Shown here: positions 17,257 to 33,026 of the stretch, one piece after another
Position numbering within the stretch: the stretch's first letter is position 1
How the letters are laid out: each line of letters starts with the position of its first letter
Origin: a virus
Virus record (IMG/VR): IMGVR_UViG_3300028840_000022
Span: 1 to 40,860 of that record
Strand: one strand, 5' to 3'
Length of the DNA stretch: 40,860 bases
Translations under genes and position numbers: made by a program
Notes under the pieces: generated by a model
What the model was told of the DNA's origin: nothing
Database searches by the model: none
What the model saw: only the letters and a program-made list of their open reading frames with translations

Positions 17257-18288
17257 TCAATGTGTATCTCTCCAAGATTTACCTATGTCAGTTGACCCAG
17301 CTAGAGGACAGACCATGTTGAAGTTCTTACCTGCATCAACGATAGCTTGACGTTGTATCTCACCTAGTAGTTCAGCATCCTTGTATGGTCCTGTCACTTC
17401 TGTCTGCCACTCATCGTGAGGCCAAGTGACTAGCTTGAAGTTAATCCATTGACGTTTAGCTTTGTATGTCCAGTCAAGTGCTGCGTGTTTCATGATCACA
17501 GCCTCACCATTCTGTAGCATACCTGCCAAGGTCTTGTGCTCAGATGGTACTGGCACCTTGCGTCCATCCAACCCAATGAAGTACCCTCGCTTTGCTATGT
17601 GAGGTATGATCTTCTTCTTGAGGTTAGCTAACCCTTGGATAGACTCCATGAAGTTATCGACTGCTTGTGTTGCCTCCTTGTTTGATACGTTAAGAATCTG
17701 ACTGATCTTGCCTGTACCTGCACCTAGCAGAAAGGCATAGATGAAAGTCTTAGCCATGTCTCTTGTTACATGTGACATACCTAGAGCCTTACGGTTGAGG
17801 TTGTGTATGTCAGTCTCGTCCTCCTTCTTACCTGACACGATAGCGTTAACATACTCCTCTGAGTTCATCAGGTGAGCTAGCACCCGTAGCTGTATGCCCT
17901 CAGCGTCTGTGCCTACCAGCCAGCTATCCTCAGGCACGGTCCATAGTGCTCTGAACTGACCGTCATACTTAGCCTTCACCTCCTCTACTGCTGACTTAGG
18001 TGTGCCATGAAACTCAGCAGGGATGTTAGCTTGGTTGGGTGCTCTGTGAGCCATGCGTCCTGTCCATGCACCAATGCCCATGAACTGCCCATGAATACGA
18101 GAATCGTCACCACAGTGGCCCAGCCACTCCACCAGTGAGGAACGTCTACCCTCAAGGGTCAACCACTCAGTTAAACGTTTGGCTCCTGTAGGGGCTGTCT
18201 CAGGCAGTGTGCTAAGGTTAGTCTCAGATAGAGTCCACCCGTACTTAGCAAACTTAGAGCCTCTATCTTCGGTTCTGTTCTCTGTCAT
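17257..18288 (-). CDS. DNA polymerase A, polymerase domain (second frame of a split or frameshifted gene)
   Basis: The polymerase domain of a T7 gp5-like family A enzyme, 343 residues from ATG 18288. Motif A is TDAEGIQLRVLAHL (Asp128), motif B is RDMAKTFIYAFLLGAG (Arg176, Lys180, Tyr184) and motif C is HDE (291-293). The residue equivalent to E. coli 762 is Tyr184, as in T7. The next conserved Tyr (E. coli 766, T7 530) is Leu188. The frame is +1 relative to the exonuclease part just upstream. ATG 18288 has AGGA ten bases upstream, so separate translation is possible. An ATG at 18333 would only add an out-of-frame reading of conserved exonuclease-part DNA. Confidence 0.9.
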   Translation of the reverse strand: MTENRTEDRGSKFAKYGWTLSETNLSTLPETAPTGAKRLTEWLTLEGRRSSLVEWLGHCGDDSRIHGQFMGIGAWTGRMAHRAPNQANIPAEFHGTPKSAVEEVKAKYDGQFRALWTVPEDSWLVGTDAEGIQLRVLAHLMNSEEYVNAIVSGKKEDETDIHNLNRKALGMSHVTRDMAKTFIYAFLLGAGTGKISQILNVSNKEATQAVDNFMESIQGLANLKKKIIPHIAKRGYFIGLDGRKVPVPSEHKTLAGMLQNGEAVIMKHAALDWTYKAKRQWINFKLVTWPHDEWQTEVTGPYKDAELLGEIQRQAIVDAGKNFNMVCPLAGSTDIGKSWRDTH

Positions 18289-19111
18289 ACTCAATGTGTC
18301 CTTTGGTTTTGTCCACTGGTTTCCAACCTGCATCCCATAGTCTTTCGATACGCATCTTAGGTGACGATGGTTTGAACTTGACCCAATCCATACAGATAAG
18401 CTGGGCTGGGAATGTATCGTAAACCTTTGTCAACTCCCCATCTGACTTTTTCCTGTACAAAATACGATTGACTTCTTCTAGTTGGGGTGGGAAGTCCTCT
18501 TGGAAACCATCCTCTAGTTCTGCCATACGCAGTTCAATCTCATCTAGCAGATGCTCTGCCTTCTCCTTGTCGAAGAAGAAACCATTGTTGTGCATCTCCT
18601 CACATAGAATCTGAATGTCGTGCTCCACCTTGATAGCTTCTTGTTGTGTCTGATCCTTGAGTACAGGTAGGAACCTCTGGTATAACTTGACAGTGACAGC
18701 TACGTCCTGATGACAGTAGTCCACCATCTCCTGAGAGAACTTAGAGAAGTCATTGAAGTCCATCTTGAAGTCAGACAGACGCTTACCCCAAGCCTTCAGT
18801 GAGTGCCCACCTTGCAGGTTGTAGTCAATGAAGCGAGATACAACAAGAGTATCCAGTACTTTACTAGGGTCAATCCTCTTGCCTAGCAGTCTGTTAATCA
18901 CAGGTACATCAAAAGCAATGCCATTGTGAAACACAAAGAGATCAACAGTATCACAGAAATTAGCAAAGTCTATACCCTCTTCTATTATTTTGTCTGGATT
19001 GTGAAACTCGTAGGTCTCACCTGTGTTGACATCCTGACCACAGATAACCCAGATGCGACTAGCATCTAGAGTGTCTGTCTCAATGTCCATAGCTACAACT
19101 TTAAGTGTCAT
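18263..19111 (-). CDS. DNA polymerase A, 3'-5' exonuclease domain (first frame of a split or frameshifted gene)
   Basis: A 282-residue protein with an intact DnaQ-like proofreading site: Exo I MDIETD (Asp9, Glu11), Exo II HNGIAFD (Asn63, Asp68), Exo III YCHQD (Tyr132, Asp136). It continues past the exonuclease into the start of the polymerase (PSSPKMRIERLWDAGWKP, matching the NPSS...L..AGW region of T7 gp5) and stops with TAG at 18263. The polymerase domain continues in the +1 frame, overlapping by 26 nt counted from ATG 18288. Joined, the two give about 620 residues, a normal size for SIO1-type polymerases. No thioredoxin-binding insert is evident. Confidence 0.9.
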   Translation of the reverse strand: MTLKVVAMDIETDTLDASRIWVICGQDVNTGETYEFHNPDKIIEEGIDFANFCDTVDLFVFHNGIAFDVPVINRLLGKRIDPSKVLDTLVVSRFIDYNLQGGHSLKAWGKRLSDFKMDFNDFSKFSQEMVDYCHQDVAVTVKLYQRFLPVLKDQTQQEAIKVEHDIQILCEEMHNNGFFFDKEKAEHLLDEIELRMAELEDGFQEDFPPQLEEVNRILYRKKSDGELTKVYDTFPAQLICMDWVKFKPSSPKMRIERLWDAGWKPVDKTKGHIEYDREQNRR

Positions 19112-23573: not shown

Positions 23574-23619
23574 TATATTATAATGAGTAATAAAAACCAA
23601 TAAGATCAGAACCTAGAAA

Positions 23620-23835
23620 ATTATACCAAGGGATAGACAAGGATGATACCAAAGTATGTAATGTTATCAATGGGGTAGCATTGGTGAGACTAAGGTATGT
23701 GCATTTCCCATATGCAATACCTAAGCTATACCAAAGCTGTACCAAAGCCAGCCAAGCAACACCAAAGGATAGCCAAGGTAAGACTAAAGGGTAGGGTACC
23801 CAACTTTTTGCTGTATCCTTAGGGGTAGCCAAGGG
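23620..23835. repeat. Helically phased CCAAAG-like repeat array
   Basis: Copies of C(C/T)(A/T)A(A/G)G begin at 23720, 23731, 23742, 23752, 23762, 23773 and 23784, with intervals of 10 or 11 bp, one DNA turn each. More copies at 23626, 23637, 23649, 23690 and 23829 extend it. A longer unit, CCAAGGGATAGACAAGG (23626) and CCAAAGGATAGCCAAGG (23762), is repeated with 15 of 17 identity. Same-face spacing suggests cooperative protein binding or DNA bending, as in origins and control regions. Confidence 0.75.
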
Positions 23836-23897
23836 GGGCCACGGGGCATCCGCCTGTATGTACAATGCACCTACAAATTTTCTCACTAAAATTTTCC

Positions 23898-23943
23898 ACA
23901 TGCAAAAAACAAAAGCACACCAAGGTTTTACCCAAAGTGTGCT
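23898..23943 (-). terminator. Terminator-like hairpin in the leftward leader (attenuator candidate)
   Basis: On the minus strand AGCACAC (23943-23937) and GTGTGCT (23920-23914) form a 7-bp stem with a 16-nt loop that contains a 3-bp inner GGT/ACC pairing, followed by TTTTGTTTTTT. It lies about 90 nt after the expected start of the main leftward transcript and upstream of all leftward genes, so it could end a short RNA unless read through. Confidence 0.65.
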
Positions 23944-24034
23944 CTACAACCATACATAGGCTGATCTGTAGTTGTCCTTAGTTAGCTAATAAGAATAATA
24001 ATACTATAAGTAATATATACTCCCCGTAACTACC
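23902..24034 (-). ncRNA. Possible short leader RNA (about 130 nt)
   Basis: Bounded by the leftward consensus promoter (-10 at 24046-24041) and the terminator-like hairpin with T-run. It has no ORF of note. It may be a stable small RNA made early, or the terminated form of an attenuated leader. This rests only on promoter and terminator placement. Confidence 0.4.
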
Positions 24035-24040
24035 AAAGTT

Positions 24041-24069
24041 ATTATACCATACTTTGTCTAACTTGTCAA
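24041..24069 (-). promoter_or_regulatory. Main leftward sigma70 promoter
   Basis: TTGACA (24069-24064), 17 bp, TATAAT (24046-24041): 12 of 12, with TGG before the -10 (extended -10) and spacer AAAGTATGG. It faces away from the rightward promoter 50 bp upstream and drives the leader and early, replication-type genes. Confidence 0.9.
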
Positions 24070-24118: not shown

Positions 24119-24147
24119 TTGACATTTGTTTTAAAGTGTGGTATCAT
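24119..24147 (+). promoter_or_regulatory. Main rightward sigma70 promoter
   Basis: TTGACA (24119-24124), 17 bp, TATCAT (24142-24147), with TGG before the -10 and spacer AAAGTGTGG, nearly the same as in the leftward promoter. The expected start near 24154 leaves a 30-nt leader with GAAGAGG before the terminase small-subunit ATG. It drives the structural arm. Confidence 0.85.
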
Positions 24148-24183: not shown

Positions 24184-24711
24184 ATGATGTTTTCTCCTAG
24201 ACAACTAAAGAATGCCAGTGGTAAGTTCTTCACTAAGAGTCTCTTCTATGAGTTATCTTACATACAACCTAAGCATTCAGTCTTTACCCTTAAAGACCAA
24301 GACATAGAGTTCGAAGGCAAACCTTTAGTTTCTTTTCCTAAACTTTATCTAGCTTTAGTGTCAGGTGATCCAACTGAGTACGAGTTCTCTCAAGTAGTCT
24401 TTGGGTCATGGGAGCACTGGCAAGCTATAGCTAAGTCACCTTTCGTTAAACCTTACATCACTAAACTCCGCAAGGAAGTAGAGGTAAAGGTGAGGTCAGA
24501 CGCTATCAAGGCTATAGCTGAGGAGATGAAGTCAAACGGAAGGAGTTCCTTTAGTGCAGCTAAGTTACTCTTAGAAAAGGGTTGGCTAGATAAAGAAACA
24601 GCATCTAAAGCTAAACAAAAACTAAAAGAAAAAGAAGAGGAAGAGATGAACAAGGAAGCTCTGTCTCTCCTCTCAGAGGATGCCAACAGACTAGGGATCA
24701 AGGTAAACTGA
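24184..24711 (+). CDS. Terminase small subunit
   Basis: A 175-residue protein and the first gene of the rightward arm. It has a VFTLKDQDIEFEGKPLVSFP segment, GDPTEYEFSQVVFGSWEHW, PFVKPYITKLRKEVEVKVRS and SSFSAAKLLLEKGW, followed by a Lys/Glu-rich helix. I recognise the DPTEYxFAxxxxxxWEHW ... ANKYLLEKxW pattern from small terminase subunits of marine podoviruses. It would recognise phage DNA and load TerL, which lies 6.8 kb downstream beyond the tail-fibre block, an unusually wide separation. Confidence 0.75.
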   Translation: MMFSPRQLKNASGKFFTKSLFYELSYIQPKHSVFTLKDQDIEFEGKPLVSFPKLYLALVSGDPTEYEFSQVVFGSWEHWQAIAKSPFVKPYITKLRKEVEVKVRSDAIKAIAEEMKSNGRSSFSAAKLLLEKGWLDKETASKAKQKLKEKEEEEMNKEALSLLSEDANRLGIKVN

Positions 24712-31490: not shown

Positions 31491-33026
31491 ATGTCAGCTT
31501 TAGATCAAATAAGAATAGCTGCTGAAGATGATCTGGTAACCTTTATTAAACTTATAGCACCAGAGCAAGTACTAGGGCAATGTCACGAAGATGTCTGCAA
31601 TTGGTGGACAAGAGAAGACAGTAAGTCACATCAGCTACTTCTATTCCCTAGGGATCACGGCAAGTCACGGCTTATAGCTTACAGGGTAGCATGGGAACTA
31701 ACCAAAGACCCAACACTTAGAATACTTTATATCTCAGCAACAGCTAACCTAGCAGAGAAACAACTAGGCTTTATCAAAGGCATACTTACATCTGAGATAT
31801 ACAGACGGTACTGGCCTGATCACGTAAACTTTGATGAAGGCAAACGTACACGATGGACCAACTCAGAGATTATGTTGGATCATCCTTTAAGGAAGAAAGA
31901 AAATGTTAGAGACCCTTCGATCTTTACTGGTGGACTTACGACTTCGCTTACAGGACTTCATTGCGACATCGCAGTCCTTGATGATTGTGTCGTTTACGAA
32001 AATGCTTACACAGGCGAGGGAAGGAATAAAGTCAAAAGTCAATACTCTCTTCTCTCCTCTATTGAAGGTGCTGAAGCGAAAGAGTGGGTCGTAGGCACTA
32101 GGTATCACCCTTCTGATCTGTACAATGATCTTCTTCAAATGATGGAAGACCAGTACAACGAGAACGGTGAGAAGACAGGTGAAGAGAATATCTACGAGGT
32201 ATTTGAGAGACCAGTGGAAGACCTAGGGGATGGCACAGGTGAGTTCCTCTGGCCTAGACAGCAACGTAAAGACGGTAAGTGGTTCGGGTTTGACATTAAA
32301 ATTCTCGCTAAGAAACGAGGTCAGTACTTAGACAAAGGCCAGTTCAGAGCACAGTACTACAACGACCCTTCTGATCCAGACAACGTTCCCGTAGGCAGCG
32401 AAAAGTTTCAGTACTTTGATCGTAAGCATTTAAAAGAAGAAAACGGATACTGGTTCTATAAAGACAACAAGTTAAACCTGTATGCAGCCGTTGACTTTGC
32501 ATTTAGTTTATCTAAGAAGGCTGACTCAACAGCTATCGTTGTCATAGGAATAGATGCTGACAACAATGTTTATGTTTTAGATATTGACAGGTTCAAGACT
32601 GATCGCATCTCAGTTTACTTTGATCACATCTTTCATCTGGTCAACAAGTGGTCATTCAGAAAAATGAGGGCCGAAACAACAGTAGCTCAGATGGCTATTG
32701 TCAGACAACTAAAAGAACTAATCAAACAACATGGGTTGTCTTTAAGTATCAACGAGTACAGACCCAATAAGAACCAAGGCAACAAACAGGAACGGATAGC
32801 TTCTATTTTGGAACCTCGTTATGATAACATGAGCATGTGGCACTACAGGGGTGGCAACATTCAAATACTAGAAGAAGAGTTGTCTTCTCGTAACCCTGCA
32901 CACGATGACGTTATAGATGCCTTAGCTTCAGCAGTTGACATGGCAGTTAAACCTTCTAGGAAAATCTTTAGAAGCAGAGACAACGTTGTACAGTTTAATA
33001 AAAGATTTGGTGGAGTTTCGTTCTAA
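31491..33026 (+). CDS. Terminase large subunit
   Basis: A 511-residue packaging motor. ATPase: Walker A FPRDHGKS (52-59) with Lys58; Walker B IAVLDD (about 160-165); a coupling motif near TATI-like YISATANLAE (80-89). The C-terminal RNase H-like nuclease has YAAVDFAFS with ADSTAIVVIG, and HDDVIDALA with conserved Asp residues. It docks on the portal encoded next (TAATG overlap) and cuts genome units from concatemers. It is of T7 gp19 type. Confidence 0.93.
   Translation: MSALDQIRIAAEDDLVTFIKLIAPEQVLGQCHEDVCNWWTREDSKSHQLLLFPRDHGKSRLIAYRVAWELTKDPTLRILYISATANLAEKQLGFIKGILTSEIYRRYWPDHVNFDEGKRTRWTNSEIMLDHPLRKKENVRDPSIFTGGLTTSLTGLHCDIAVLDDCVVYENAYTGEGRNKVKSQYSLLSSIEGAEAKEWVVGTRYHPSDLYNDLLQMMEDQYNENGEKTGEENIYEVFERPVEDLGDGTGEFLWPRQQRKDGKWFGFDIKILAKKRGQYLDKGQFRAQYYNDPSDPDNVPVGSEKFQYFDRKHLKEENGYWFYKDNKLNLYAAVDFAFSLSKKADSTAIVVIGIDADNNVYVLDIDRFKTDRISVYFDHIFHLVNKWSFRKMRAETTVAQMAIVRQLKELIKQHGLSLSINEYRPNKNQGNKQERIASILEPRYDNMSMWHYRGGNIQILEEELSSRNPAHDDVIDALASAVDMAVKPSRKIFRSRDNVVQFNKRFGGVSF

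Follow-up and report, generated by a model that had tools for sequence, protein, structure and literature searches.

A helically phased CCAAAG-like array in the predicted direct terminal repeat of a Veravirus-like cobavirus genome

Introduction

Why should a phage carry seven copies of a short word, spaced one turn of the helix apart, in the region from which its genes diverge? The words lie in IMG/VR virus record IMGVR_UViG_3300028840_000022, which was analysed over its full length of 40,860 bases (the window). An earlier note, made from the letters alone, had suggested a cooperative binding platform or bent DNA, such as an iteron-type replication origin or a packaging site. Here we ask whether the array is real, where it lies relative to the ends of the virion genome, and which of these readings fits best.

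Results

Genome context

The window is a complete or near-complete genome of a Veravirus-like cobavirus (Zobellviridae), a marine virus of bacteria. Its relatives include Roseobacter phage CRP-5 and Lentibacter phage ICBM2 (Veravirus, Cobavirinae, Zobellviridae). It encodes a T7-type primase/helicase, PolA, thymidylate synthase, ribonucleotide reductase, terminase, portal and internal virion proteins. From the divergent region, early genes run leftward and late genes rightward. As a separate observation, the DNA polymerase is encoded in two overlapping ORFs, polymerase and 3'-5' exonuclease (17257-18333 and 18263-19111, minus strand); this split was also seen in CRP-5 and ICBM2, and a single ORF in CRP-4 and Siovirus.

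The phased array is not a chance pattern

23720-23789, plus strand: seven-word CCAAAG-like array, one word per 10-11 bp, within the predicted direct terminal repeat (DTR)
23626-23695, plus strand: outlying CCAAGG/ACAAGG/CCAAAG/CTAAGG copies left of the DTR, given by word position and of marginal periodicity

All eleven words listed in the earlier note were found at their positions. The array proper reads CCTAAG (23720), CCAAAG (23731), CCAAAG (23742), CCAAGC (23752), CCAAAG (23762), CCAAGG (23773) and CTAAAG (23784). These seven words fit the pattern CYWARS, and their starts (23720-23784) are 11, 11, 10, 10, 11 and 11 bp apart. The outlying words are CCAAGG (23626), ACAAGG (23637), CCAAAG (23649) and CTAAGG (23690). 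Their positions hold, but the near-integer turns claimed for them do not stand out: the periodicity of these copies alone is marginal (left flank, lag 10+11, p=0.063), and the gaps of 41 bp (23649 to 23690) and 30 bp (23690 to 23720) are whole 10.5-bp turns only roughly. The repeated unit of about 17 bp was recovered, with copies at 23625-23642 and 23761-23778 that lie 136 bp apart and are identical at 16 of 18 positions.

Over the 40.9-kb genome, the longest chain of CYWARS words at 10-11-bp steps comprises seven words on the plus strand and two on the minus strand. In whole-genome dinucleotide shuffles (n=200), the longest chain was three, reached in two of them, and otherwise one or two. 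CYWARS is a descriptive pattern that was picked after the array had been seen, and a word-free test was therefore added, in which 4-mer identities at lags 10 and 11 were scored in segments of 100 bp. In the whole genome, the top-ranked segment (at 23709) is the array, which is the strongest 10/11-bp self-similarity in the 40.9 kb. The DTR has a self-similarity score of 18 compared to a shuffled mean of 1.8 (p=0.001), and a test on the maximum over lags gave p=0.003. Shuffled sequences do not equal the periodicity of the array. The words are also biased in strand, with ratios of 12:4, 14:2 and 9:1 in the intergenic region of array phages. The phased array is real and not due to chance.

The array lies inside a predicted terminal repeat

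~23703-23866, no strand assigned: predicted DTR of the linear virion genome, 164 bp, both ends matching the mapped 159-bp DTR of ICBM2 (ATTTCCC...TGTATGTACAAT)
23703-23709, plus strand: conserved left DTR boundary motif ATTTCCC, matching ICBM2 and relatives
23817-23866, plus strand: conserved G+C-rich right DTR end, finishing TGTATGTACAAT, matching ICBM2 and relatives

Homology identifies the divergent region as the genome-end (concatemer) junction. According to excerpts of the ICBM phage report (PMC6775973), the DTRs of ICBM1 (172 bp) and ICBM2 (159 bp) were determined with PacBio reads, and the G+C-rich conserved part is the 5' end of cobaviral DTRs. In the orientation of the window, the ICBM2 DTR starts ATTTCCCC and ends TGTATGTACAAT. 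Both end marks are present in the window (23703 and 23866), which places the seven-word array inside the predicted DTR. By the same homology it fills the left half of the repeat; it starts 17 bp from the left end, and the outlying copies are just outside. Predicted DTRs in relatives measure 136-194 bp. The ICBM1-3 DTRs share the junction, the conserved right end and a similar length with the window, and ICBM2 has a phased CCWAWG array. The excerpts describe the DTRs and their G+C-rich conserved end and, as far as they go, mention neither a phased array nor a core outside the DTR nor a leftward RNA.

The record holds one DTR copy, and no overlap between the record ends was found. Among the contigs compared, L009 alone ends at the predicted right terminus (AATGCACC...). 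Because the ends of all others scatter, contig ends are weak evidence of the terminus. The deposited ICBM3 record (L049) carries two near-identical DTR copies at its end/start junction, as expected for a linear genome deposited in rotated form.

Two other candidate features of this segment were rejected. An ORF across the DTR (23578-23901, minus strand) was considered as coding, and its frame is broken by DTRs that are 1 and 22 bp longer in close relatives. Hits of a terminator scan within the DTR (23789-23801) are weak palindromes near the shuffled expectation.

A conserved core adjoins the repeat

23867-23905, plus strand: family-wide conserved core just outside the DTR, containing an imperfect direct repeat (AAATTTTCTCAC at 23875-23886, AAAATTTTCCAC at 23888-23899)

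Immediately right of the DTR, the sequence begins GCACCTnnAAATTTTCTCAC... and reads more fully GCACCTACAAATTTTCTCACTAAAATTTTCCAC. Klebsiella phage VR7901 and Vibrio phage VPMCC5 have this core in their matching divergent region, and a similar sequence directly adjoins the annotated end of the VpV262 DTR. It is non-coding and kept across Zobellviridae that infect Klebsiella, Vibrio and Roseobacter. It seems likely that the core, rather than the array, is the terminase cut or recognition signal.

The array is lineage-specific

Both DTR ends and the core are conserved, and the sequence between the ends changes quickly. The CCAAAG array is kept in the nearest relatives (L004-L008 and L017). Other lineages carry replacement words, namely CCWAWG in ICBM2, CCAAGG in CRP-5, L011 and L012, and GCATACG in L043, and each of these is significantly self-similar at roughly one or two turns of the helix. 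Signs of an array were weak or absent in most Siovirus DTRs, in L015, L020, L024 and L025, and in the L018-L042 group. An array is missing from at least two lineages that have the same DTR ends and the same core (the L015/L028 type and the L018-L042 type), and none was found in VpV262, VR7901 or VPMCC5 either. Comparison of the locus among related phages thus gives a divided answer: the one-turn phasing is kept in several, whereas at least two lineages with the same ends do without it. With such phages lacking it, the array is not essential for packaging in this family. A tree of the neighbouring protein, which leaves some deep branches unresolved, requires three changes to account for the array, such as a single gain with two losses. 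Sequence comparison indicates that the array is lineage-specific and that its 10-11-bp phasing outlasts changes of word in related lineages.

Two further motifs were noted in these regions. Palindromic TTTGTGATCACAAA words in the DTR regions of L015, L026, L031 and, in part, L008 replace or accompany the CCAAAG array. A near-palindrome, GTTATAnTATAAC, is found in or left of the DTR in ICBM2, CRP-4, ICBM1, SIO1, L020 and L025; it is possibly an operator or early promoter element of cobaviruses.

A small-terminase candidate is encoded beside the junction

24184-24711, plus strand: small-terminase candidate, 175 aa, phrog_8035 (unknown function), from synteny in homologues
31491-33026, plus strand: large terminase subunit (phrog_38, E=1.8e-88)

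In ICP2, GP100 and VR7901, the phrog_8035 homologues lie directly upstream of the large-terminase gene and overlap or abut it. This position is the usual place of the small-terminase gene. In the window, the two genes are 6.8 kb apart. The 24184-24711 product had no useful match in Pfam, NCBIfam or PDB sequences. A structure model of moderate confidence (pLDDT 72) was used in a fold search, which gave no useful match and no solved small terminase (TerS). We infer from homologue synteny, the model having matched nothing useful, that this gene is a candidate for TerS. The packaging site suggested by the earlier note is right in its location: the array is inside the predicted DTR at the concatemer junction and adjoins the small-terminase candidate gene.

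A predicted leftward unit points at the genome end

23643-23670, minus strand: candidate leftward promoter TTGATA-16-TATCAT, overlapping outlying copies, only in the closest relatives
23904-23943, minus strand: hairpin and T-run, intrinsic terminator of the leftward transcript, 40 bp before the DTR, from sequence and Veravirus-like relatives
23904-24034, minus strand: putative non-coding RNA of ~130 nt pointing at the genome end, from promoter, terminator and folding
24041-24069, minus strand: perfect leftward sigma-70 promoter TTGACA-17-TATAAT with TG, from promoter scan
24119-24147, plus strand: late-operon promoter TTGACA-17-TATCAT, rightward, from promoter scan

The promoter-RNA-terminator unit (23904-24069, minus strand) is found in Veravirus-like relatives and absent in Siovirus. 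In the Veravirus-like relatives scanned, its sigma-70 promoter agrees with the consensus at 11-12 of 12 positions; it was not found in Siovirus. The terminator, which is absent from the list of the consensus scanner, occurs in nearly all Veravirus-like relatives whose sequence reaches that far. The predicted leftward RNA is ~130-266 nt long, and that of the window folds better than shuffles (z=-2.7). Covariation supports the terminator hairpin alone, within groups; a 5' hairpin varies from group to group and cannot be made out clearly in the group of the window. No conserved ORF was found in the predicted RNA, and an Rfam search with the window RNA and those of five relatives returned no family. 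A sub-threshold hit to mir-2788 (20 bits, cutoff 62) was set aside as chance. The AT-rich segment described in the earlier note (23976-24030) is present and lies inside the predicted RNA. The unit putatively encodes a small RNA aimed at the genome terminus. In T7, promoter A0, annotated as leftward near the left end, likewise points at the genome end, as the transcript of the window would in virion DNA. Upstream of the terS-like gene, L010 departs from the near-identical L009 right past the terminator; this is either a rearranged phage or a chimeric contig.

Discussion

The array probably helps the virus to recognise and cut its own DNA in packaging. Our preferred explanation combines cutting guided by the core with an array that serves as an accessory one-turn platform for a packaging protein, likeliest TerS; we consider this joint account about equally apt to hold or to fail. 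The terminase would cut at both conserved ends of the DTR, with the core at 23867-23905 as its main guide. The array would be accessory: a phage DNA-binding protein would occupy it in several copies, one per turn and all on one face of the helix, and would mark the junction or hold it while concatemers mature. The best candidate for this protein is the small terminase encoded at 24184. On this view, co-evolution with the protein would explain why the word changes fast under constant phasing, possibly as for the CCTAAAG arrays of T7.

A cooperative binding platform for a candidate packaging protein is plausible. The closest likeness is to the T7 SRL/SRR arrays, which have nearly the same word (CCTAAAG compared to CCAAAG/CCTAAG) on one strand, in and beside the ~160-bp DTR of a T7-type podovirus. 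In T7, CCTAAAG occurs at 17, 41 and 60 inside the 160-bp DTR and at 175, 188, 213, 226, 239, 293, 306 and 332 beside it, with a self-similarity score of 55 at lag 12-13 (p=0.003). However, the T7 spacing is ~13 bp and that of the window 10-11 bp, and the densest part lies outside the DTR in T7 but inside it in the window. No sequence homology was shown between the two junctions. The T7 arrays were reportedly noted when that genome was sequenced, and to our knowledge no function has been established for them since.

The pac sites of SPP1 and SF6 offer a second comparison. Here, too, repeats at a packaging site lie beside the small-terminase gene and differ between close relatives, the direct repeats of SPP1 and SF6 being different, and neighbouring helix-turn-helix (HTH) motifs of SF6-type TerS rings are about one DNA turn apart (PMC4737164). 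On the other hand, these are headful phages without DTRs and have no run of seven one-turn repeats, and single SF6 binding domains show little sequence preference on pac DNA, which counts against our model (PMC4737164). Reviews call TerS-DNA recognition unresolved and the wrapping model disputed (PMC9611059, PMC7672466). According to a study on another podovirus (PMC10386132), the small terminase may be subject to diversity selection for recognising its own DNA, and a changing word with fixed phasing would fit such selection.

The strongest alternative, unlikely on present evidence yet a serious contender, is that another phage protein binds the array, as a transcription or replication regulator of the divergent promoters or of leftward early transcription, and that the array falls in the DTR simply because this repeat is part of the control region. 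The region has three promoter-like sites, and ICBM1 and ICBM2 encode a small early HTH protein. However, no homologue of that protein was detectable in the window. The candidate promoter at 23643-23670 does overlap the outlying copies, but it is found only in the closest relatives, and the dense array lies inside the DTR, ~50 bp from the nearest promoter-like site.

Somewhat less probable is an origin by replication slippage or tandem duplication in a weakly selected part of the DTR, with no binding protein involved. Such a by-product would suit the 11-bp tandem repeat detectable at 23717-23748, the quick change of words and DTR length, and the loss of the array in some lineages. Against it, lineages with different words have one-turn spacing in common, the strand bias of the words extends outside the DTR, and the linkers between units are not identical.

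An iteron-type origin with an AT-rich unwinding element is very improbable. Helically phased short direct repeats near AT-rich DNA resemble iterons, and the cumulative GC skew has its minimum near 23-24 kb, but divergent transcription equally predicts a skew switch and the AT-rich stretch belongs to the leftward transcription unit. The array is in a DTR and is lost in related lineages. Replication genes are of the T7 type (primase/helicase with a PolA-type polymerase), and no iteron initiator was recognised among the genes searched, many small ORFs being unannotated; this proposal of the earlier note found no support.

We give least credence to intrinsically bent DNA selected by shape (nucleosome-like wrapping), although AAA steps recur every 10-11 bp, wedge models rank the array in the 96th-99th percentile genome-wide, and conformational selection has been proposed for SF6/SPP1 pac DNA (PMC4737164): predicted curvature is not above dinucleotide shuffles (p=0.12, 0.29), no array phage clearly exceeds them under both wedge models, and G+C/A+T power at 10-11 bp is below shuffles (Fourier, p=0.95), with a dominant period of 5.7 bp, so that both helix faces alternate.

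Returning to the packaging platform, a bolder version, which we offer as doubtful speculation, is a packaging barcode. The TerS ring would set the one-turn spacing and the word would be specific to the lineage, so that each phage would mature its own concatemers and leave those of co-infecting relatives alone, with the core constant across the family; the adjacent small RNA could join in end processing.

For the family, the core provides a sequence marker for Zobellviridae genome ends in metagenomes. The array group and T7 have a near-identical word in the same place, and relatives have other words with constant phasing, which together make a natural experiment on array function. The array also offers a test of how a small terminase finds phage DNA, the question that remains under debate (PMC9611059).
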